DNA from: Acorus gramineus | Lineage: Eukaryota; Streptophyta; Magnoliopsida; Acorales; Acoraceae | Length of the DNA: 64,000 nt | Reading direction: 5' to 3' | Assembly: GCA_030737835.1 (NCBI GenBank) | Contig: CM060847.1 | Coordinates: 2,336,977 to 2,400,976, forward strand | Shown here: positions 1 through 46,571 of the stretch, in pieces | Position numbering within the stretch: position 1 is the first letter of the stretch | How the letters are laid out: each line of letters begins with the position of its first letter | Made by a program: the position numbers and the translations under genes | The notes under the pieces: model-generated | The model's database searches: none | The model's input: the letters and a program-made list of their open reading frames with translations, nothing else | Told to the model about the DNA's origin: nothing

Positions 1-535
1 GCTTTTAATCTGGGTAGTCCAAATTTTAGGTAAATCTAGTTAATCTTACATGTTGGGTCAGGTTGATTTATTTAATTTGCACATCATGTTAGAAATTCGG
101 GTTGGGTCAGGTTGGTCCAATTCGGGTTGAAAATCGGATTGAGTTGGATTAGGGTTAAGTAGTTTGGAATTCGGGTTGGGTTTGGGTTGGGATCAATCCG
201 AACCCAACTCGCCTGAGTTGCAACCCTATCACCAGTTACCACCACCCCGTCAAGCCCTAGCCCTCCCTCCTCTCCTCCCTCCCATGGACCCTCTCCAGCC
301 CACTTTGAAAACGGCTTTCTTCACTCATCTCCGCCCCATCTCCGATGGTCTTCGAGATGGGGATGGTAAGGTTGACCAGGCGAGGATTCGGATGTCGGTT
401 GGTGGGGAGGCGGTGGAATCGGTGAGCCTAGTCAGAGGAGGATGAGTTCGGATCTTCAGAGAGGGGACTTTCGTCATTGATGGTAGTGGTGAGCTCGTGA
501 AGAGAGGGTCGCGGATCGTGATTGGCAAAACTAAA
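1..535. other. Low-complexity GGGTTGGG-rich DNA with a GC-rich coding-like scrap
   Basis: Positions 1-190 are made of variants of TCGGGTTGGGTCAGGTTGG. Positions 230-530 become GC-rich and look like decayed coding sequence: a frame from the ATG at 283 reads MDPLQPTLKTAFFTHLRPIS, then stops near 443. I do not recognise the protein. Similar GC-rich scraps in this window lie inside transposons, so a captured gene fragment is the likeliest reading, but no clear terminal repeats were found. Confidence 0.3.
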
Positions 536-699
536 AAAAATTAGGGGTGGGATCAGTTAAGAGTGGGGTGGGTTGGGGTAGGTTAAGGTGGATTGTATCA
601 TATATGTATTGAGGGGTTAAAAAAGAATGGGGTGGATGAGATAATGGGGTGACTTTTTCATTGCATGGTATGGATGTAACCATCCCTTTTTTTATAGTT

Positions 700-1575
700 A
701 TTATCACAAAATCAAACAAAATACTAATAAAATAAATAAAATATAAAAAAATAGTACACAATGTAATAAGATTTTATTCTTTTTGTGGGAGGTGGAATTG
801 GATCTTCTTCTGTTGGGCTGGATTTGGAGACGATCCATACTTTCGATGCTGATCCAAGAAGAAGCGTTTAGGAGAACCTCCATGTTGGTTGTCAATTCCT
901 ATTCGTCTGATCTCCCTCTTTGACCTTCCGCTCTGATCACCTGTAATTCACACCGGTATGTTCAAGTCAGATCTCCATTAAAGTGAGAATTCAAATTTGA
1001 TTATAGGGTTTTGAGAAAGAAGAGGTGTGTACCTTATGTTGAAGGGGATACCCTTCTATTTATAGGCGCAGGTGACGTGCCTGTTTATGGTATAGAGGTG
1101 TGAGCATATCATGAAATAAAATCTTTCACGTGGCTATTGGATTGGTCGACACATTTGATCATGGGATCAATTCATCATAACATCATAACTGTTTTATGAT
1201 AGTTCGTCATACTCATTGTGTCATATAATATTCCGTGGATCTTTCTGTAATTTCACTAGTGTTCATACTATACACATGAGATGCCTTTGTATCAGGTCGG
1301 GCCTCATGGTCTGACTAATTCAGGTAAGAGCATATCGGGATTTCATCTTCGGACACTCAGGTCTGATCGGTAATCTGACCTGGATGTTCCTCCACTGGAC
1401 CTGGAATGAAGGCTTACTTCTGAAATGGTGTATTGGGGCGAGGTGATCTTGTCTTCGACATGGGCCCTTGTGTCAAGCTGGTCCTTTAGCTCAGATGGGC
1501 CTTGACACTGGTGAGCCTGTCTCCTTAATTTCTGTATCTTTATTCCTTATTCAGGTGAGACGAGTTTTCTCCCCT
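700..1575 (-). mobile_element. Decayed LTR-retrotransposon remnant, Gypsy-like (minus strand)
   Basis: Read on the minus strand this stretch has a TATA-like CTATAAATAGAAGGG (about 1054-1068). It is followed by leader-like sequence with GACTTGAACATACCGGTG, then ACAGGTGATCAGAGC and a short frame containing MEVLLNASSW. That order resembles the U3-R-U5 end and leader of plant Gypsy LTR elements. No second LTR, primer-binding site or polymerase was found, so this is a fragment and the class is an inference. Confidence 0.35.
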
Positions 1576-1983: not shown

Positions 1984-4571
1984 ATGGACAACAATCCACT
2001 GCACCTTCTCATCCTCGCCCTCACTCTAACCCTCCTCCTCACCCTCCTCCTCCGCCTCCTCCGCACCCCAAAACACATCTACCTCTTAGACTTCGCCTGC
2101 CACAAGCCCTCAGACTCCGACCGCGCCCCGACCGCAACATGCCTCGAACACTACGCCCTCTATGACGGCTTGGCGCCCGCGAGCGTCACCTTCCTAACCA
2201 AGATCCTCGAACGCTCGGGCATCGGCCCCGAGTCCTGCGTCCCGGACGCGACGCACGTGCTCCCCCCCGACGAGTCCCTCCGGGCCGCGCGCGCGGAGAT
2301 GGAGTCCGTGCTATTCGATGCCGTCGCGGACCTCTTCGAGAGGACCCGATCCGTGGCGGACCCGCGTGATGTTGCGGTGATCGTCTCGAACTGCAGCCTC
2401 ACGTGCCCGACGCCGTCGATCGCAGCGATGGTGGCGAATAGGTTCTGTTGGAAATTTTTTCAGATTTTATGAAAAATATTGCTATCTCAATAAATAATAA
2501 TTTGAAGGAATCAATATATTAAAAAATCAATAATATAAAAACCATAAAATAAAGAGATAAAAGAGAAATGAATATGTTATTCATATGTACGGAGTATTAT
2601 TGACATTATTTGTTCCTAAGATGCAATCCGACCTGTGAGATTTCACGGTTTTCCATAGATGCAATCAAGTAGAATTTTTTAATCGAATCCTTGTATTGTC
2701 GATGATGGCTGTAATAGATGGATAATAGTTGGATCCATATCTTTTATGAACACAACAAGATTTTTTTATGAAAGAAATCTGCATAAAGACTTTGATTAAT
2801 TTTCTTGTCTATTAATTTCTTATCTTTTTTTTTTTTTTTTGGTCACTAAACATTATCTATGGAAATCATAGGCCAAATGGAAAACAATGTAACGGCTAAA
2901 AAAGATAGAATAATTCCTTGTATAATAGTCAAAATTGAGAAAACGATAAAATATTCTAAAATTTGGATCATAATTAAAATATATTTAATAGGTTCAAGAT
3001 GGGGAGTGACGTGAGATGCTATAGCTTGGCCGGGATGGGGTGCGGTGCGGGACTGCTTGCGGTGGACCTCGCGCGGGAGGTTTTGGGGGGGATGAAAGGG
3101 GAGGGGCTTGCGCTTGTGTTGAGCATGGAAGGGATTGCAGGGAATGGGTACACTGGGGGGACTAAGTCCATGTTGCTTACTAATTGCCTCTTCAGGATGG
3201 GTGGTGCGGCTGTGCTATTGTCCAACAGGGAGAGGGACCGAAGTGTGTCGAAATACATGTTACGGCGGCTTGTGCGGACCCACCTCGGGTCCCAAAACAG
3301 GGCCTACAGGTATGGTCACAAAGTACTATGAACTTTTTCAAATGTTCGAAGAGGTGTTCTGATATCTAAAGAACTATGTTCGCAACATTCAGATTCTTGG
3401 TGATAATTTATCACATTTTTCATTGTTAAACCGCCTTTACACCTAACAGAGAATTTTGTGCATGTGTTTCTCGTACTATTGAAAGCATACCTCTAGAAAA
3501 TAGTTTAATTGACTTTCAACTTATCTTATATGATTTACAAAAGTAAATGTTACTGGTTAAATGTGAATGGTACATGAAATTGTAACCATGACCACGGCCA
3601 CTAATACACCCAACCGGCATTTAGCTGATTTTCTTGACTTGAATGTATATGTATTCTAAATAATGGTATATGAATATCATATACCTTAATCTATAAGGTA
3701 CATGATGAAAAAATGAGCTAAAAATTGAGACTAGATGTAACATTATTTATGTGCAATGCATGAGTACGACATTTGTGTGGGCTGTCGGTAATGGGCGACG
3801 GTAAAAGTTAATTTTCTTCTGGTGACATTGAGCACTTGATATTCTTAACCCCCGTACTTTTCGCTTCGTGAGCAGTTGTGTTTTCCACGAACCCGACAAG
3901 GAAGGCTTCGTCGGCGTCTCGTTGTCAAGGGACATACTATCCGTGGCCGGAGACGCATTAAGAGCAAATATCGCCACACTCGGCCCATTGATCCTACCGT
4001 ACTCAGAACAATTCAAATACGCGTGGTCAATAATCCGTCGCAAAATCCTCCAATCCCCCACCACCGCATACGTACCAGACTTCAAAAAGGCGGTCGAGCA
4101 CTTCTGCATACACGCGGGAGGGCGGGCGGTGATCGACGCGATCGAGGAGCGCCTCGGCCTAAGCGAGGCGGACGTGGAGGCGTCGAAGATGACGTTGTAC
4201 AGGTTTTTTTCTTCTTTTTCTCAGGGTAAATTTAAATTTTGTATTGCTATATGAAACTATGTCTGTACGAAGAGGAATTTACAAAAACTAGGATTTGTTG
4301 TGTTCAGATTCTGGATATTCATTAAGTTTGGACGTTGTACAGGTTCGGGAACACGTCGTCGTCATCGGTGTGGTACGAGCTGTGCTACCTGGAGGCGAAG
4401 GGGAGGGTGCGGAGGGGGGACCGGGTGTGGCAGATCGGGTTCGGGTCCGGGTTCAAGTGCAACAGCGCGGTCTGGGAGTGCATGTCAGACCTGGAGCCCA
4501 GGCCGAGGAACGCCTGGTCCGATCGGATACATTTGTACCCGGTCCAGGTGCCTCATGTGCTCTATCATTAG
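1984..4571 (+). CDS. KCS: 3-ketoacyl-CoA synthase (KCS), four exons, 443 aa
   Basis: Membrane-bound condensing enzyme of the ER fatty acid elongase: it joins malonyl-CoA to a long-chain acyl-CoA, the first step of very-long-chain fatty acid (wax, cutin, seed lipid) synthesis. Exons: 1984-2441, 2992-3309, 3876-4202, 4343-4571. All junctions are GT-AG, all are phase 2 after AG, and they give an unbroken 443-residue frame. Residues 5-26 form one hydrophobic helix. The FAE1/CUT1 condensing domain follows, with catalytic Cys170 (GMGCGAG), His338 (FCIHAGGRA) and Asn371 ([10 protein letters not shown]), and the usual [17 protein letters not shown] near the C terminus. The protein aligns almost without gaps to the intronless KCS at 6393-7763. 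Introns 1 and 3 lie between exact direct repeats (see findings). Exon 1 is very GC-rich. If intron 1 or 3 is not spliced the frame stops at once, so without transcripts a disrupted pseudogene cannot be excluded. Confidence 0.85.
2437..2995. mobile_element. 541-bp insertion with 9-bp target-site duplication forming KCS intron 1
   Basis: AATAGGTTC occurs at 2437-2445 and again at 2987-2995, flanking 541 bp of AT-rich DNA (2446-2986) in GC-rich coding sequence. Removing the insert and one repeat restores the frame at the length of the neighbouring paralogue. The repeat contains AGGT, so it supplies donor (AG|GTTCTG) and acceptor (TTTAATAG|G) of a 550-bp intron (2442-2991). The insert starts TGTTGGAAA and holds a T-tract near 2830, but has no evident terminal inverted repeat or ORF. 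A 9-bp duplication suits Mutator-like elements; the class is not settled. Confidence 0.7.
4191..4345. repeat. 15-bp direct repeat flanking the 140-bp KCS intron 3
   Basis: GACGTTGTACAGGTT is present at 4191-4205 (end of exon 3) and 4331-4345 (start of exon 4). Both copies contain CAG|GT, so the intron 4203-4342 takes its donor from the left copy and its acceptor from the right copy. Splicing reads TLYRFGNT in frame. The neighbouring intronless paralogue has uninterrupted sequence at this place. Confidence 0.8.
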
Positions 4572-6392
4572 ATGCATTATATTTTGTGTATGCATTAATT
4601 GGGTGTGAATCATTAGAAGATGATGTTATAGCAAAGTAAGATTGATTTGATGAACAAAATGCATTGAGAGGTTTGAAAAACTTGAAGAGTTCATGGTATT
4701 TGAACAACTAGGAAAACCTTGCAGACTGTATGTATGACAATCACCAGGACTGTGAAGTAACAAACATGCAGGATTGTGACCATCTCATAGTTGAGAAAAC
4801 CTAGGATGCACATAAGCACTTGCAAACCTGCATCAGATATTTTTGGCCCAGTAGCTAAAGAGGAATTGTTTTTCTGTTTGGTCCTCTCTCCATATTTTGG
4901 TTTACTTCGGAGATTTGAAGATAAAAATGGATAAAAATGAATAATGATTTATAACTTTTTAAATAACAAATCTATCCTTATATAATTTGTTCATGTTTGA
5001 TACTTTTATTAAAATCATCCATCTTTTAATCGTGACAAACTATCACACATATTTTAACATGGTTCTTTTTGTATTTATTGCTCATCTCCATTTTTAAAAT
5101 TTTCCTATTAATAATGTCAACATAGGTTAAAATATTTCGTGTTATAAAGTTTAATTTTTAACAGAAGTAAAAAAATTAAATTATAATACAAAATTGTATT
5201 ATGGAAGTTTGCATTATAAAATTAAAATATTATGAGATGTGAGGATTTTTTTTAAAACAAATTATAGTATAAAAGATTGTATTATAAACTTAAACAATCT
5301 GAGAAATATTTTTTAGAATAACAGGAAATGATACTACAAGTATAGATAAAGAAAAACGTTCTGATCAATTATATTCTTGACCCTATTTGATACCACAGAT
5401 AATGTATAACTTTCACAAAGAAACTACATACTAAAATATAAGTATCCAAATCCAAATAATTTTAAATGAAAATATATACCAACTGTGGTGATAAATAAGA
5501 CTACATAAAGGTGGTTATATTAGCACTCTATAGATAATAATGAATGAGCAATTCTCTTCCGCTCTTTCGTGTCAAGCCCAAGAGGTACTGATATAAATCT
5601 ATGAAAAAATGATATATATTCAGACCCTTTCAGCCCCAACCACTTTATTTTTCTAAATTACACTCACCTAATAAAATAAATATTTTTTTCTTCTAAAAAA
5701 GATAGATCTTACTGGGGATGAAATAAATATTATTATAAAAAGATAAAGTATCCATATACATATTTTTATTTTCTGAAAAATAAAAAATTTAATTGAGATA
5801 TTAGTAGAGTATATGTTGAATTTGGATAATATATAATCCATTAGTAAAATGTATAGTTGACCGGGAACAACCTCCGAACCACAGACTTGGCTGCAAACAA
5901 AATTGAGTGTACATGCACACTCTAATTCTACTCATGAAAAACCTAAAAATTTTCCAACATTAGTGAAGTGAAGGAACCCTACTTGAGCCTGTTGATACAT
6001 GAGACATACATACATAATGTATGTCCGGGCTGCAAGAATTACAACATGCATCCCTTCTACTGATAACTCCTAAATTATGTAAAAATAAGTTCCTCCCTCA
6101 CAAGACTTAGCTTCTAGGTGAAAATAATCCACAACCATGTTATCATGCAAGTTGCCTGAAAAAAACCTTCTCCAGAAGAAGCAACCTCCTTCACATGACT
6201 CTATATTCACTTCTTTCACTCCATAGTCATGCACAAGTGATGTTTAACAACCCATGCAACAAATCCAAGTCCACATGCAAATCCCCCCGCCAAATTTTCT
6301 GCAACGCAAGGTTACTTCAAAACTGCATCTTGGTATTACTAGCCTGAAATGATCCACAAATTGAAGCACATTTCAGTCACCAAGCACCAACA
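4572..6392. other. AT-rich spacer between the two KCS genes
   Basis: About 1.8 kb of AT-rich sequence without a supportable gene. It must hold the 3' end of the first KCS and the promoter of the second, but no convincing TATA box or known motif could be assigned. Confidence 0.6.
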
Positions 6393-7763
6393 ATGGCAAT
6401 GGTGAGCCCCTCTATCAATCCAAACAATATCATCCATAACTTACTCTCATTGGACCATCTACCTCATATAGCAGCAATCATCATAACCCTAACAGCCATG
6501 TATTGTTCCTACAGATCCAAGAAGCTCTATATCCTCGATTTCTCATGTTATCAAGGCCCAGACTTCTGTAGGGCGCCGGTCTCCACCTACCTGGAACACT
6601 ATGAAATCTCTGGGCAATTCGACCAGGACAACATCAAATTCCAAGCCAAAATCCTCGAGCGCTCCGGCCTCGGAAACGAACCTTGTGTCCCGCCCGGGAT
6701 CAAGGTCCTTCCGCCTGACCTCTCCTTTAACGCTTCCCTAAAAGAAGTTGAGGATGTCCTCTTCACAGCCACAGAGGATGTCCTCACCAAGAACAAAGTG
6801 AACCCGAAGACCATTGACATTCTCATCACGAATTGCAGCCTTTTTTGCCCAACGCCTTCTATGTCATCGATGGTCATCAACCGTTTCGGTTTCAGGAGCA
6901 ATGTCATGAGTTTCAGCCTCTCCGGCATGGGATGCAGCGCGGGCATCCTTTCGGTGAGCATGGCAAGAGACCTCCTCAAGGTTCACAAGAATTCGGTCGC
7001 GCTTGTCCTGAGCATGGAAGCTGTGACTGTTGGTGGGTATGAGGGGAAGGTCAAATCCATGCTTCTGGCGAACTGCCTCTTCCGCATGGGTGGGGCTGCA
7101 ATTCTACTATCCAATCGGAAGAAAGACAAGAAGACAGCGAAATACGTATTAAAGGAGTTAGTGCATACGAACCTCGCGTCTGACAACAAGTCGTATGAGT
7201 GCATCTTCCAACAACCGGATGAGGAGGGGATTGTTGGAGTGTCCCTCTCCAGAGATATATTACAAGTGGCTGGAAATGCGTTGATGATAAACCTCAGTTC
7301 ATTAGCTCCAAAAGTCCTTCCCTACAAGGAAAAGTTCAAATATGGGTGGTTTGTTATAAAAAGGAAGTACTGGGAAATGTTAGGGAAGAAAAAGCTTCCC
7401 ATACCAATTCCAGATTTTAGGACTTGTTTTGGACATTTTTGTATCCATGCAGGAGGGAGGGCCATGATTGAGGCGATTGAAGAGAATCTAGGGCTGCGAG
7501 AGGAGGTGGAGGCCTCAAAAATGGCGCTCTACAGGTTTGGGAACACGTCGTCATCATCCATTTGGTATGCTCTCTGCTACCTGGAAGCAAAGGGAAGGGT
7601 AAAGAAGGGAGATAAGGTGTGGCAGGTCGCATTTGGAAGTGGCTTCATGTGCAACAGTGCTGTATGGGAGTGTGTTTCAGATATCGATTCTACGGTTAAA
7701 AATGCATGGTCAGACAGGATACATTTGTACCCAGTGAAGGTTCCAGATGTGCTGGACCATTGA
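6393..7763 (+). CDS. KCS: 3-ketoacyl-CoA synthase (KCS), intronless, 456 aa
   Basis: Second condensing enzyme of the ER fatty acid elongase, a tandem paralogue of the gene at 1984-4571 in the same orientation. A single uninterrupted ORF starts at ATG 6393. Residues 24-40 form a hydrophobic segment, then comes the FAE1/CUT1 condensing domain with Cys181 (SGMGCSAG), His352 (FCIHAGGRA) and Asn384 ([10 protein letters not shown]), and the C-terminal VWQVAFGSGFMCNSAVWE block. The length is a little short for the family (about 450-530), because only one clear N-terminal membrane segment is seen; that resembles the short-N-terminus KCS group. Base composition is much less GC-rich than in its neighbour despite clear protein similarity. 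All catalytic residues are present, so it should be functional. Confidence 0.96.
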   Translation: MAMVSPSINPNNIIHNLLSLDHLPHIAAIIITLTAMYCSYRSKKLYILDFSCYQGPDFCRAPVSTYLEHYEISGQFDQDNIKFQAKILERSGLGNEPCVPPGIKVLPPDLSFNASLKEVEDVLFTATEDVLTKNKVNPKTIDILITNCSLFCPTPSMSSMVINRFGFRSNVMSFSLSGMGCSAGILSVSMARDLLKVHKNSVALVLSMEAVTVGGYEGKVKSMLLANCLFRMGGAAILLSNRKKDKKTAKYVLKELVHTNLASDNKSYECIFQQPDEEGIVGVSLSRDILQVAGNALMINLSSLAPKVLPYKEKFKYGWFVIKRKYWEMLGKKKLPIPIPDFRTCFGHFCIHAGGRAMIEAIEENLGLREEVEASKMALYRFGNTSSSSIWYALCYLEAKGRVKKGDKVWQVAFGSGFMCNSAVWECVSDIDSTVKNAWSDRIHLYPVKVPDVLDH

Positions 7764-8386: not shown

Positions 8387-8990
8387 ATATATGATAGGCT
8401 GCTGACCAAGGATTACCGCGCCAAGTGGAGACCCGAGGCATCGAAGTCCTGCGTGCTTTGCCCAGGGGAGGTTGAAACAGTTGAACACCTATTCATCACA
8501 TGTCCAATTGCATCCCAGGTGTGGTCTGATCTAAGCTCGACGTCGGGCCTTCATCTCTGCTTCCATAATATGATCAAACTATGGGAGGTGATGACATCGT
8601 TCTACAGAAAGGGTGACAAGAGCAAACTCTCTCGTATTAAACAGTTGTTGATTCCGCCGGGGCTGTGGATGCTATGGACATTCAGAAATAAAGTGATCTT
8701 TAGGGGCCAAAGGTTCTATATGGAGAATCTCCAGCAGTCACTTAACCAGTTGATCCAGGACTGGGGACGTCACTTGGTCGGGGTGGAGAGCATCTCATTT
8801 AGAAATGGCGACCTTTGTATTCTCGACTGATGCAGACTAGTGAGTGGTGGTTTCCACTCAAACGGGGGAGGGGAATGCTTTGGAGTTCCGATTCCTGTGA
8901 AACCACTCGTGTCCCGATCTGACTTCTCGCACACCCCTCCTTTCCATTAGGGGGATCCTCTCAGCTCTCTTGGCTGTTTTTTTTTATATA
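8387..8990 (+). mobile_element. 5'-truncated LINE: zinc-binding end of reverse transcriptase ORF plus 3' UTR
   Basis: An open frame to the stop at 8830 reads DRLLTKDYRAKW, then CVLCPGEVETVEHLFITCP and LWMLWTFRNKVIFRGQRFY. This is the zf-RVT (C-x2-C, HLF-x2-C) C-terminal region of plant non-LTR retrotransposon polyproteins. About 160 bp of 3' UTR ends in a T-run and ATATATAAATTTTCATCAG, which resembles plant LINE tails. The reverse transcriptase itself is missing, as expected after 5' truncation. Confidence 0.75.
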
Positions 8991-35065: not shown

Positions 35066-35925
35066 TATTAAATTGGGCGCGTCTATCCCTACCAAGCGTT
35101 TTTCTTACCCCACTAATCAAAAAAAAAAAAAACTGGTGTTTGCCTGTTCCCACTGATCCAGGTCGATCGAATTTAGTCGTCATTTCAGGTTTTGAGCGAC
35201 CGTAATTGGTCGCAATTTCAGGTTTTGGATGACTGTAATTGGTCGAACAGGGTTCAGAACTATATCTACCTATTTTTTGTAAACAAATAAATTTTTGGAT
35301 TTATCCATCATATTCTACATTTATTCTTTTATCCAAACAACAGCTAAGGGGTCGAAAAAAATATAAGTAGGTATACTTTCAATTAATTCAAAATTTTATA
35401 GAAAAATATCTTATTAGACAAATATATATCATTTTTAAGCTTCGTTTGAATTCGTAGTTAAGAGGATTCTTCGTTTGAAAACAAAAAAAACATATCAATT
35501 GATCCAAACACATTATATATTTGGCTTTTGAAAATTTGTCTGTCACTTATGTAAAAAAAAATTGTTCTTATATTCTACATTTAAGAATAATAATTGATTC
35601 TCCTTACATTACAACTCAGACTTGGAGTGGTATGAAGGATTCAAGGAAGATATACGTCATGGGATTATGTTTCCAAGAAAAAAATTATAAACTTTATTAC
35701 AAATTCTGTTCGACCAAGTTCGGTCGCCCGAAACCTGAAATGATGACCAAGTCTGATCGCCCAAAACCTGAAATAGCGACTAAGTCCGGTCGTCCAAAAC
35801 CTGAAGTGACGACTAAATTTGATCGACCTGACCGGATCGGTGAAAAAAGATAAAACACCGATTTTTTTTTTCGATTGGTGGGGTAAGAAAAAAATTTGGT
35901 GGGGATAGCCGCGTCCTATTAAATT
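35066..35925. mobile_element. Non-autonomous Mutator-like element with 9-bp target-site duplication
   Basis: TATTAAATT lies at 35066-35074 and 35917-35925, flanking an 842-bp element (35075-35916). Its ends are long imperfect inverted repeats of about 180-200 bp: left GGGCGCGTCTATCCCTACCA, right, inverted, GGACGCGGCTATCCCCACCA. Both arms carry tandem units of about 33 bp with core TTTCAGGTTTTGG(A/G)CGACCG: two in the left arm, three in the right. A 9-bp duplication with long inverted repeats is diagnostic of MULEs. There is no transposase. The 35521-35853 frame (GRPKPE repeats) is just the right arm read as protein. Confidence 0.85.
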
Positions 35926-42669: not shown

Positions 42670-43757
42670 GCTCATGGTCTAATTGTGTTAGGCTACAATC
42701 CTAACTCACAAGTCAATACCATGTGACACTGTCCATAGCCCAATCAAATTAACGATCAGGCCTTGCCTAGCTGGCCCATTTTATACCTCCGATACTAGAG
42801 AATGACCAATCATGTTTTTATAACAAGGTCTAATAGTACCCCAATTATGTTCTTATAATGATGTATATATCTCTGAGATTGAGACTGTATTTGAGACCGT
42901 CAAAAAGCGTAAGTGTAACAATGCTAATTATATTTATTATGGGTGTAGTTACACACAGTTTTTTTACATTCTTAAATACAGTCTTATATATCTCGTTAGT
43001 TATTCAGTAAAGTATGTATCACTTTATGTGAGGTTTCTACCTCATTATTTTTTTTTACATTTTTTGAAAATGAGTCTCTTCAAATTGAAATGTAGCTTTA
43101 TATTCATTATTCTACTTGAAGAAAAATTGAAATACGGGAGGACTGTTGGGACTTAATTTGAGGTTACCCGTGACTTTACCCATTTACTATTGGAAACTAA
43201 TCCAAATAACCCCTTATAAACTGGCAGAAATTCATATAAACCCCTGAATTTTTCTAAAGTCCATTTAACCCCCTGAAACACCTACGTAAATCTAAATAAC
43301 TTTTTAAATTAAATTTCTATTGATAGATGAAAAATATTCTGTAAATATTCCGTTTTGTTAACCCTGATTAAAAATATAGTTTACAAAAAAAAAAAAAAAA
43401 ACCCCTTTAAAGTGTTAAAAATGGTAAAACTCTCTGTCCATGATAATTTTATCCCTCCGAGTAAATTATAAAACCCTATTCGGAGGGATAAAATAGTTAT
43501 TTATAGAGGATTTTTCATATTTTTAACATATTGTTCGTAGTTTTTTTAATATTGTATTTTCAATCATAGTTAATTTTGATAGCGAAAATTTAAATCAGGG
43601 AGCTATTTAGATTTACATAGCTGCCTTCTATATGCATCCCCCAAAAATCAGGGGGTTATATAGATTTATGTCATTTCACAGGGGTTATATGGATTGTTCC
43701 CTTTAACAATTGCTACAATTTAGACAGCCGGACTTCACCAAAACCTGATGATGGGTG
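42670..43757. other. Spacer upstream of the PPR gene
   Basis: AT-rich. Short similar stretches (AGGGGGTTATATAGATTTA, ATAGATTTATGTCATTTCA) near 43650 resemble DNA at about 38100-38170, which suggests a shared dispersed repeat. No promoter motif could be fixed. Confidence 0.4.
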
Positions 43758-46571
43758 ATGAATCTCTGGCGACTCAACCCCCTCCGATCCAACACTCCTC
43801 ACCAACTCCTCCTCCTCACCCTCCTCTACCATTCACCCACTAATAAACCCATCTCCACCACCACCCACATTGAAGAAGAAGCAGAGCAAACCAAAGCCAC
43901 TCTGAGCTTGCTCCGCAGCCCAAACTTCTCCCCAACCCCGACCACCTATTCCAATCTCCTCTCCCAATGCCTCTCCACATCCCAACCCCTCCCCTTCGCC
44001 TCCCAAATCCACGCCCACCTCGCCAAGTCCGGTCTCACCGCGCACGCCACGACCCACACCCTCCTCACCCGCCTCTACCTCCAACTCAACCTCCCCAACC
44101 GCGCGCGCGACCTGCTCGACGAAATCCCCCACTCGGAACACCTCGTCTCCGCCTACGCGCGCGCAGGCCTCGCGCGCGAGTCCGCGCTCGCGTTCAAGAA
44201 CATGCGCTCGGCGGGGGTTGAGTGCGACGCGTTCACCTTCCCGAGCGTGCTCAAGGCGTGCTCGACGTCGCTTGATTACGTCGCTCTCGGCACCCAAATC
44301 CACGCCGTCGTCGTCTTCACCGGGTTCGAGTCCGACGTCTACGTCGCGAACACGCTCGCGGTTGCGTACGCCAAGTGGGGCATGCTGTCGCACTCGCGGA
44401 GGCTCTTCGACGCGATCCCTGACCGCAACGTCGTCTCGTGGAACGTCCTCCTCAATGGGTACGTGCGCAACGATCGGTGCGGGGAGGCGCTGTGGCTTTT
44501 CGGGGAGATGGTGTTGAGCGGGACGAAGCCCGACGAGTTCAGCCTTTCAACGGCGCTCAACGCGTGCACGGGTGCAGAGGACCTCCGTCGCGGGAGGTGG
44601 GTGCACGGGCTCCTTGTGCGCATGGGTCACGCGGGGGACCTCTTCTCCTCGAACGCGCTCGTCGACATGTACGCCAAGCTCGGTGACATGGGCGCCGCGT
44701 GCGCGGCCTTCGAGGGGATCGGTCAGCCAGATGTCGTCTCGTGGAACGCGCTCATCGCGGGTTGCGTCCTCCACGGGAGGCACGCGCGGGCGTTGGAATT
44801 GGTGGAAGAGATGAAGCGGGCGGGGACGAAGCCGAACATTTTCACGCATTCGAGTGTTTTGAAGGCATGCGCGGAGGCGGAGGCGCTTGATTTGGGTAGG
44901 CGAATCCACTCGAGCCTGATCAAAACGGGATCCGATCGCGACCCGTTCGTGTCTGTCGGTCTCGTGGACATGTATGCGAAGTGCGTGATCATGGAGGATG
45001 CAAGGCGGGCTTTTGATTCTATTCGTGACCGCAGTCTGATAGCATGGAACGCGTTGATTTCTGGGTACTCGCAGAATGGTCACGACAAAGAAGCGCTCGC
45101 TCTCTTTTCGAGCATGCGCGGGGAAGGTTTCAGTCCCACCTTCAACCGGACCGCACTATTGGCCGTGCTGAAATCGTCATCCGGCGTTCAATCCGTAGTC
45201 CTAAGCAGACAACTCCATGCGCTCGCATTGAAAGCCGGTCTGCATTGCGATGATCATGTCATGAACAGTCTGATCGATGCGTATGGGAAATGTGGATACA
45301 TAGAGGATGCGAGGATGGTATTTGATGAGAATCCGTTCGGAGACATCGTCGCCTTCACATCGATGATCACCGTGTACGCGCAGTTCGGGTGGGGTGAGGA
45401 AGCTCTAAAGCTATATGTGAATATGCTGAAAGGAGGGCACGAGCCGGACGGGTTCGCGTGCAGCAGCGCCCTCAACGCGTGCACCACCCTCTCCGCGTAC
45501 GAGCAAGGGAAGCAAATCCACACGCGCATCTTGAAATCGGGGTTTATCCACGACATCTTCGCCGGGAACGCGCTCGTCAACATGTACGCCAAGTGCGGGA
45601 GCGTGGAGGACGCGGGGGTCGCGTTCTCCGAGATACCCAATAGGGGGGTCGTCTCTTGGTCCGCTATGATCGGCGGGCTTGCCCAGCACGGCCACGGAGA
45701 GGAAGCGCTCGAGGTGTTCCGTGAAATGCTCGAAGAAGGGGTCGCGCCGAACCACATCACGCTCACGAGCGTCCTCTGCGCGTGCAACCACGCGGGGCTG
45801 GTCTCCGAGGCAGAGGAGTGCTTTGACACGATGGAGCATAGGTTCGCGATCGAACGCACTGGGGAGCACTATGCATGCATGATCGATGTGCTCGGGCGCG
45901 CGGGGAGGCTTGATGAGGCGGTGAGGCTCGTTGAAACCATGCCGTTCGAGGCGAACGGCGCGGTGTGGGGCGCGCTGTTGGGCGCGGCAAGGATCCACAA
46001 GGATCCTGCACTGGCGAATTGGGCGGCCGAGAGGCTTTTGTCGCTCGAGCCGGAGAAGTCCGGGACGCACGTGTTGCTCGCGAACGTGTACGCGTCGGCG
46101 GGTATGTGGGGAGACGTGGCACGCGTGCGTCGGGCGATGCGGGAGTGCGGGGTGAAGAAGGAGCCCGGGATGAGCTGGGTCGAGGCGAAGGACGAGGTCC
46201 ATACGTTCGTGGTGGGGGACAACAGCCACCCGAGGGCGCGCGAGATCTACGCGAAGCTGGAGGAGCTGGGCCATTCGATTGTCGAACTGGGGTACGCGCC
46301 GATGGTGGAGATCGATCTGCACAATGTGGGGAGGGGTGATAAGGAGGCGCTGCTCGTGCAGCATAGCGAGCGGCTTGCGCTGGCGTTTGGGCTCATTAGT
46401 ACGCCGGAAGGGGCGCCGATTCGGATCAAGAAGAATCTGAGGATTTGTAGGGATTGTCATTTGGTGTTTAAATATGTGAGCAGGGTCGTTTCGAGAGCGA
46501 TCATTGTTAGAGATGTTAATAGATTCCACCATTTTAGAGACGGCGAGTGCTCATGTAGGGATTACTGGTGA
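43758..46571 (+). CDS. DYW-class PLS pentatricopeptide repeat protein, intronless, 937 aa
   Basis: Predicted organelle RNA-editing factor: PPR motifs bind a specific RNA site and the DYW domain is a cytidine deaminase for C-to-U editing. The ATG at 43758 gives MNLWRLNPLRSN; the frame also runs 1 codon further up to a GTG. The N-terminus is Arg/Ser/Leu-rich without acids, compatible with a mitochondrial or plastid presequence. From about residue 55 come PLS-type repeats with the usual HAHLAKSGL, NTLAVAYAKWG, VVSWNVLLNGY and KPDEFSLSTALNAC cores. E/E+ motifs follow (VWGALLGAARIHKD, LLANVYASAGMWGDV, KKEPGMSWVE). The DYW domain has HSE at 869-871, CRDC at 897-900 and ends CSCRDYW, so the zinc and catalytic residues are complete. 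The first third is very GC-rich. The edited site cannot be predicted here. A TRIM element starts 57 bp after the stop. Confidence 0.95.
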   Translation: MNLWRLNPLRSNTPHQLLLLTLLYHSPTNKPISTTTHIEEEAEQTKATLSLLRSPNFSPTPTTYSNLLSQCLSTSQPLPFASQIHAHLAKSGLTAHATTHTLLTRLYLQLNLPNRARDLLDEIPHSEHLVSAYARAGLARESALAFKNMRSAGVECDAFTFPSVLKACSTSLDYVALGTQIHAVVVFTGFESDVYVANTLAVAYAKWGMLSHSRRLFDAIPDRNVVSWNVLLNGYVRNDRCGEALWLFGEMVLSGTKPDEFSLSTALNACTGAEDLRRGRWVHGLLVRMGHAGDLFSSNALVDMYAKLGDMGAACAAFEGIGQPDVVSWNALIAGCVLHGRHARALELVEEMKRAGTKPNIFTHSSVLKACAEAEALDLGRRIHSSLIKTGSDRDPFVSVGLVDMYAKCVIMEDARRAFDSIRDRSLIAWNALISGYSQNGHDKEALALFSSMRGEGFSPTFNRTALLAVLKSSSGVQSVVLSRQLHALALKAGLHCDDHVMNSLIDAYGKCGYIEDARMVFDENPFGDIVAFTSMITVYAQFGWGEEALKLYVNMLKGGHEPDGFACSSALNACTTLSAYEQGKQIHTRILKSGFIHDIFAGNALVNMYAKCGSVEDAGVAFSEIPNRGVVSWSAMIGGLAQHGHGEEALEVFREMLEEGVAPNHITLTSVLCACNHAGLVSEAEECFDTMEHRFAIERTGEHYACMIDVLGRAGRLDEAVRLVETMPFEANGAVWGALLGAARIHKDPALANWAAERLLSLEPEKSGTHVLLANVYASAGMWGDVARVRRAMRECGVKKEPGMSWVEAKDEVHTFVVGDNSHPRAREIYAKLEELGHSIVELGYAPMVEIDLHNVGRGDKEALLVQHSERLALAFGLISTPEGAPIRIKKNLRICRDCHLVFKYVSRVVSRAIIVRDVNRFHHFRDGECSCRDYW

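Follow-up and report, generated by a model that had tools for sequence, protein, structure and literature searches.

The origins of most introns are untraceable. KCS-A, a wax-type fatty-acid enzyme gene of Acorus, raises the question of where its introns came from and how its coding sequence could have taken them up; in this gene all three components, namely the inserted element, its target duplication and the resulting splice sites, are legible for one intron and mostly so for another. The analysis concerns a stretch of 64,000 nucleotides of Acorus gramineus DNA, referred to as the window, to which all coordinates apply.

The KCS-A gene and its surroundings

The window starts with two adjacent 3-ketoacyl-CoA synthase (KCS) genes, KCS-A followed by KCS-B. 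KCS-A, which is KCS7-like (1984-4574, plus strand), is made up of four exons on the plus strand (1984-2441, 2992-3309, 3876-4202 and 4343-4574), the spliced translation of which gives 443 aa, the frame being free of stop codons and frameshifts outside the introns. All three introns are in phase 2, and the spliced coding sequence contains four AGGT motifs, located at codons 153, 183, 368 and 437. KCS-B (6393-7763, plus strand; 456 aa; locus L029, protein match P0037), which is an intronless paralogue, served for comparison.

The best protein match of KCS-A is a KCS of Acorus calamus (P0001; 95% identity over 94% of the query), the residues of which are identical to those of KCS-A at all three exon joins, while its annotation is without six residues (VLLSNR) away from the joins. 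A published estimate places the split from A. calamus, which has two subgenomes, at about 9.9 Mya (PMC10282084). The window's own KCS-A protein was absent from the best 120 of the 5706 matches, from which 38 were chosen to form, together with KCS-A, a tree of 39 rows. In this tree KCS-A groups with its A. calamus relative and a Colocasia KCS (support 92/94), and residues C170, H338 and N371, which we take to be the catalytic residues of KCS, are invariant in 39 of the 39 aligned rows. A search with the exon-1 read-through protein returned no match at E 0.001 among 315 candidates.

Several other features of the window were noted. A perfect 38-bp tandem duplication, CACACCTTGCATGCATTCCAACTAATAGTTTTAATTAC, is present at 1847-1923, approximately 60-140 bp ahead of the start codon of KCS-A, and an ORF downstream of KCS-B (8453-8830) resembles, by eye, the zinc-binding end of a LINE reverse transcriptase. 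An uninterrupted ORF of 938 aa at 43755-46571 appears, again by eye, to encode a pentatricopeptide-repeat protein, while an inverted pair of approximately 165 bp (35067-35228 and 35761-35924, 80% alike) could be a MITE or hairpin element. The long repeat pairs 57026-57612/62813-63417 (85% identity) and 50318-50952/58309-58965 (79%) suggest local duplication in the last 15 kb of the window.

Intron 1 and the LTR family to which it belongs

Intron 1 (2442-2991, plus strand; 550 nt, phase 2) interrupts codon 153, which encodes the R of the motif NRF, and reads AG|GTTCTG..AATAG|GTTC. It is AT-rich (24.7% GC), and its retention would result in a protein that stops after 162 aa. A first-pass annotation of this DNA had explained it as a 541-bp insertion into coding sequence, with a target duplication of 9 bp supplying both splice sites, and had compared it to introner-type elements of algae and Ds insertions of maize. 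The 9-bp repeat on which that proposal was based, AATAGGTTC, is indeed present at 2437-2445 and 2987-2995, and excision of 2442-2991 restores AAT AGG TTC and with it ten residues that align gap-free with the paralogue, inside the four-exon frame of 443 aa.

The identity of the insert became apparent from a search of the Acorus genome (398.6 Mb, 137 contigs) using 2446-2986 as the query. Other copies were found, as the annotation had envisaged: at least 48 further stretches resemble the insert, with identities of 66-92%, and in 18 the match starts at its first base (40 of 130 candidates scored). As the query itself starts at base 1, the left boundary was judged from the flanking sequences; 20 places were read, in 18 of which the family start is visible. 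Mean pairwise identity among these 18 copies is 0.63 over the first 25 bases inside the element and 0.30 in the left flanks, where only two pairs exceed 0.6 (L019/L020 and L024/L025, each identical), and the point at which the likeness stops outward is the TG with which an LTR begins. On the right, the family mostly ends in ..ATATAT(CC/TT/TC)AACA, after which the sequences diverge; the right flanks of nine copies have a mean identity of 0.34, and likeness among them is confined to the near-duplicates L018, L024 and L025. These three near-duplicates are among the eight copies aligned at the LTR end, of which seven finish in AACA and one in AACG, compared to AATA in KCS-A, which is one substitution away from the family's CA end. 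Reading the same number of copies at both ends revealed perfect and mutually different 5-bp duplications in three (GATTG in L013, GAAAC in L016 and TAAAC in L027), four of five duplication bases in L012, and no 5-bp duplication in L018, L021, L024 and L025.

The divergence of the flanks, the ends of the family and the 5-bp duplications of its relatives together define the element as 2446-2990 and the duplication as GGTTC, the length of which falls within the range of 4-6 bp for a target duplication. On this sequence evidence intron 1 of KCS-A is a solo LTR of 545 bp (TGTTGG..TTTAATA), written on the plus strand in the reading direction of the gene and flanked by a left (2441-2445) and a right (2991-2995) copy of GGTTC, both on the plus strand. 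The length given previously is thereby corrected by four bases, and the LTR of a retrotransposon takes the place of an introner- or Ds-like DNA transposon; the duplication measures 5 rather than 9 bp because the element is an LTR, to the end of which the other four bases of the repeat belong. The exon bases AATA (2437-2440, plus strand) equal the last four bases of the LTR (2987-2990) and so lengthen the repeat from five to nine; we read this extra match as a chance feature of the exon, three of the four bases being the LTR family's own.

Alignment of the insert with six relatives gave a modest identity of 62-71% over 420-529 columns, whereas shuffled versions of the insert (20 shuffles) aligned to one relative at 48% on average and 53% at most; coverage is thinnest at 2796-2845, around a run of T. 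A primer site of the initiator-methionine type was found in none of the 20 stretches read. A DNA transposon with a 9-bp duplication, as in Mutator-like elements, was also considered and rejected, given that a scan of 2400-3040 detected no inverted repeat that pairs the ends of the insert and that three relatives carry duplications of 5 bp.

Intron 3 and its LINE fragment

Intron 3 (4203-4342, plus strand; 140 nt, phase 2, 30% GC) interrupts codon 368, the R of YRF, with the borders AG|GTTTTT..TACAG|GTT, and its retention would stop the protein after 384 aa. It is bordered by an exact 15-bp duplication, GACGTTGTACAGGTT, at 4191-4205 and 4331-4345 (plus strand), which contains AGGT and which, although a stronger repeat than that of intron 1, was overlooked by the first-pass annotation. 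A genome search with intron 3 gave six other matches of 48-85 bases, all within the first 85 of its 140 bases. These are LINE 3' ends lying antisense to the gene, with the arrangement ..ATAGCAATACAAA..TTTACCCT followed by an A-rich run; in three of the six, L080, L085 and L081, the sequence upstream of the tail encodes LINE peptides (two matching zf-RVT and one RVT_3), while the longest frames of the other three were, by eye, unlike LINE protein.

Tail alignment and genome matches thus assign 4206-4330 (minus strand) to the antisense, 5'-truncated 3' end of a LINE with an A-rich tail, approximately 40 bp at its 5' side being without a match in the genome. The A-rich 3' tail adjoins the duplication, which is where target-primed reverse transcription leaves such a tail, and LINE target duplications are variable in length, often 7-20 bp. 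Insertion of a truncated LINE copy, together with its target duplication, would explain the anatomy of intron 3.

Flanking repeats and chance

Repeats in register with the exon borders extend over 9 bases at intron 1, 3 at intron 2 and 15 at intron 3. Random introns were generated with matching base composition and GT..AG ends, and 3394 of 400000 (0.85%) reached at least 9 bases; the 3 bases of intron 2 are equalled by 16% of random introns and the 15 of intron 3 by one in 400000. Pseudo-introns across the window gave 94881 GT..AG pairs 100-700 bp apart, of which 19 reach 9 bases and 3 reach 15, the real introns included. The 9-bp repeat is, by itself, only moderately unlikely to arise by chance, and coincidence would be a weak reading for intron 1 alone and an unlikely one for intron 3; judged by these rates, the first-pass annotation had selected the weaker of two remarkable introns. 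In Drosophila, flanking repeats of at least 5 bp have been reported for 26 of 100 conserved introns (PMC3296678), and a short repeat alone therefore proves little. The case for intron 1 is strong because of the identity of the insert as a repeat element, not because of the repeat. Tandem duplication of exon sequence was rejected as a source of introns 1 and 3, both of which are AT-rich and match genome repeats, not exons.

Splice sites

Duplication of GGTTC would have left A-G|GTTC on the left of the LTR and CA-G|GTTC on its right. The donor GT would then lie entirely within the left copy of the duplication, with the exon's A in front of the duplicated GGT producing AG|GT, whereas the acceptor AG would combine the terminal A of the LTR, whose family ends in CA, with the first G of the right copy. 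The acceptor was presumably CAG|GT at first and would have become the present TAG|GT through one C-to-T change; CAG is the standard acceptor and TAG is also usual. The first-pass annotation was right in placing an insertion in coding sequence and in deriving splice sites from its target duplication, but only half of the acceptor comes from the duplication, the other half being contributed by the LTR. We infer that intron 1 is spliced by means of these LTR- and duplication-derived sites.

Measured against the donor consensus, donor positions +3 to +6 agree in none of four cases in intron 1 and in one of four in intron 3; the 17 other modelled KCS introns have one to three such matches, some being as weak as intron 3. 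Weak donors fit sites borrowed from coding sequence, and they also leave room for inefficient splicing.

Intron positions in other Acorus KCS genes

Intron 2 (3310-3875, plus strand; 566 nt, phase 2, codon 259) has no flanking repeat beyond its three in-register bases. KCS-A was compared by spliced alignment with 13 further Acorus KCS loci and then with 16 more. Among the 13, introns that agree in codon and phase with those of KCS-A interrupt codon 153 in L060, codon 259 in L064, L065 and L066, and codon 368 in L059. The readable parts of the 16 contain no intron at codons 153, 259 or 368, two of these loci being void (wrong strand; frames open across the whole match), two partial and one poorly aligned, with a few weaker KCS matches excluded. 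None of eight KCS loci modelled as intronless (L029, L030, L031, L033-L036 and L038) has an intron at codon 153 or 368; one of them, L035, carries stop codons.

The intron of L060, a distant paralogue, (1159-1558, minus strand) sits at the codon of intron 1 and has AGGTAC on both sides and TG..CA inside, and it is possibly a decayed LTR intron; its ends had no matches in the genome search. Its 39 other genome matches are all interior (within 123-327 of 400), for which reason it looks unrelated to intron 1. The codon-368 intron of L059 (1880-3230) shows a 9-base in-register repeat, TGCACAGGT, and contains at approximately 77-571 a repeat whose copies match on both strands (4089 first-look candidates, 40 scored), which likely represents an abundant palindromic, MITE-like family. 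In L060 and L059 the repeats are restricted to the intron interiors, so that neither intron represents the insertion present at the corresponding codon of KCS-A. Either codons 153 and 368 gain introns repeatedly, in which case the conserved motifs NRF and YRF, which often keep AGGT, would be the reason, or some of those introns are old. In Daphnia, independent gain at one and the same site is reported to be common, accounting for 43 of 90 new introns (PMC4202315). KCS genes of other plants have few introns, 20 of 29 in maize and 17 of 25 in sorghum being described as intronless (PMC11676716, PMC9549899).

Search for a second LTR-made intron

The genome was scanned for the LTR family start at an AGGT site using the pattern AGGTNNTGTTRGAAAT (AGGTNN followed by TGTTRGAAAT), which yielded 17 places compared to 11 for a reversed-pattern control. 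At the 16 places other than KCS-A, comparison with five LTR queries gave no match at E 1e-4; the scan requires an exact start and so sees only part of the family. A family of introners comprises many highly similar introns in separate genes of a single genome; the six aligned LTR relatives, 62-71% alike and none of them identified as an intron, do not present this picture.

One further candidate was considered, namely an insert of 362 bp with TG..CA ends (386-747, minus strand, of the 831 bases of L098) which has GGTAC on both sides and lies, by eye, in a pectin methylesterase exon. At this site 38 of 41 matching stretches read across, and the 3' part of the insert is matched by 29 of 35 other stretches. 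In four of four copies read, the repeat runs on for approximately 30 bp, which means that the end of the insert is not the end of the family, and L098 is unproven as a second LTR-made intron; also counting against it, the codon that holds the insert is interrupted by an intron in L111, another such gene.

Origin of introns 1 and 3

Taken together, the sequence data make it probable that introns 1 and 3 of KCS-A were made by the insertion of an LTR element and a LINE, respectively, with splice sites of the AGGT type duplicated in the process. An LTR retrotransposon would have inserted in the KCS-A coding sequence at codon 153, duplicating GGTTC, a step that we regard as well supported. Recombination between the two LTRs of the element would later have left one, as is suggested by the LTR being solo. 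Loss of GTTC, the LTR and G would restore the frame with zero bases gained or lost, and such exact restoration, with splicing, would have enabled the gene to survive with its new intron. Independently, a truncated LINE copy would have inserted antisense at codon 368, duplicating 15 bp that include AGGT and so giving rise to intron 3. Of the four AGGT sites in the gene, two thus appear to owe their introns to different retroelements, and such sites may be able to absorb insertions of this kind without loss.

It is conceivable, though unlikely, that the LTR and LINE insertions simply disrupted the gene and that we are looking at a dead or truncated allele whose introns are apparent only. The weak donors would agree with such an allele, as would the early stops that retention of either intron entails. 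Against this, neither a stop nor a frameshift interrupts the 443 codons of the exons, C170, H338 and N371 are conserved, and the A. calamus protein, at 95% identity, is annotated with the same joins, its VLLSNR gap being located elsewhere. Less probable still is an origin of both introns as ancestral ones at codons 153 and 368, common to L060 and L059, that mobile elements subsequently filled or replaced. Each intron position of KCS-A is indeed found again, with codon and phase unchanged, in one or more paralogues, but the Daphnia data cited above (PMC4202315) illustrate that parallel gain at one site is common. Moreover, intron 1 consists of duplication and LTR only and intron 3 of duplication, LINE fragment and a few bases without a match, which leaves no recognisable old intron sequence in either, and the duplications span exon and intron exactly; introns composed of little beyond element and duplication favour gain.

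The least probable of the readings is that filler DNA, derived by coincidence from an LTR and a LINE, was captured when staggered double-strand breaks were repaired. Short direct repeats do mark many new Daphnia introns (PMC3443670, PMC4202315), but the LTR of intron 1 possesses both family ends and a 5-bp duplication, as in three relatives, and the LINE piece has its A-rich 3' tail at the duplication. Due to the approximately 40 bp of LINE insert that remain unmatched, the argument against break repair is stronger for intron 1 than for intron 3.

A broader reading, which we advance tentatively and with some doubt, is that LTR retrotransposons may have a built-in route to seamless introns: an element ending in CA and flanked by a duplication that starts with GGT would create CAG|GT after it and xG|GT before it, KCS-A uniting an LTR and a LINE version of the process in one gene. 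The rule would operate in either orientation, both ends of an LTR being of the TG..CA type, and would make it simple to tell from sequence which LTR insertions are able to become introns. If it is true, approximately 1 in 64 targets would qualify, and LTRs that survive in plant coding sequences should be enriched for GGT duplications. The open-licence literature searched yielded no earlier report of the KCS-A introns or of an LTR-end rule.

Comparison with known intron-making systems

Mobile-element introns in plants include Ds insertions in maize and a p-SINE1-like catalase intron in rice, which KCS-A resembles in this general respect and from which it differs in the class of element involved. 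ONSEN, an LTR retrotransposon of Arabidopsis, is a Copia element. An induced exonic insertion of ONSEN was reported to be spliced out, as seen in cDNA reads, and its authors consider that ONSEN LTRs may hold splice sites (PMC12112155). In ONSEN an exonic LTR retrotransposon was removed as an intron, as would also be the case in KCS-A judging by its sequence; the reported ONSEN insertion is induced and full-length, whereas KCS-A harbours a solo LTR of natural origin, read from a genome assembly.

The insertion of transposons at AGGT is a route of intron gain that has been both proposed and documented, a 2012 review presenting 35 unambiguous events in Oryza, Zea, Drosophila and Oikopleura (PMC3443670). 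KCS-A shares with the route described there a duplicated AGGT, an AG|GT donor, an AG|G acceptor and an unchanged coding sequence, but departs from it in a duplication of 5 bp (GGTTC), in an acceptor of which half is LTR, and in the participation of two classes of retroelement in one gene. Introners are likewise mobile elements that make introns, some of them with both splice sites taken from the insertion site; a survey of 3325 genomes reported none in any land plant, and, among animals and land plants, found them in two groups only, both of them animals (Gozashti et al. 2022, PMC9860276). In contrast to introners, no family of similar introns was found for the LTR of KCS-A, the narrow scan having added no LTR member at its 16 further places. 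KCS-A accordingly differs from the known cases in its natural solo LTR, in an acceptor whose make-up is shared between element and duplication, and in the presence of a LINE-made intron in the same gene.
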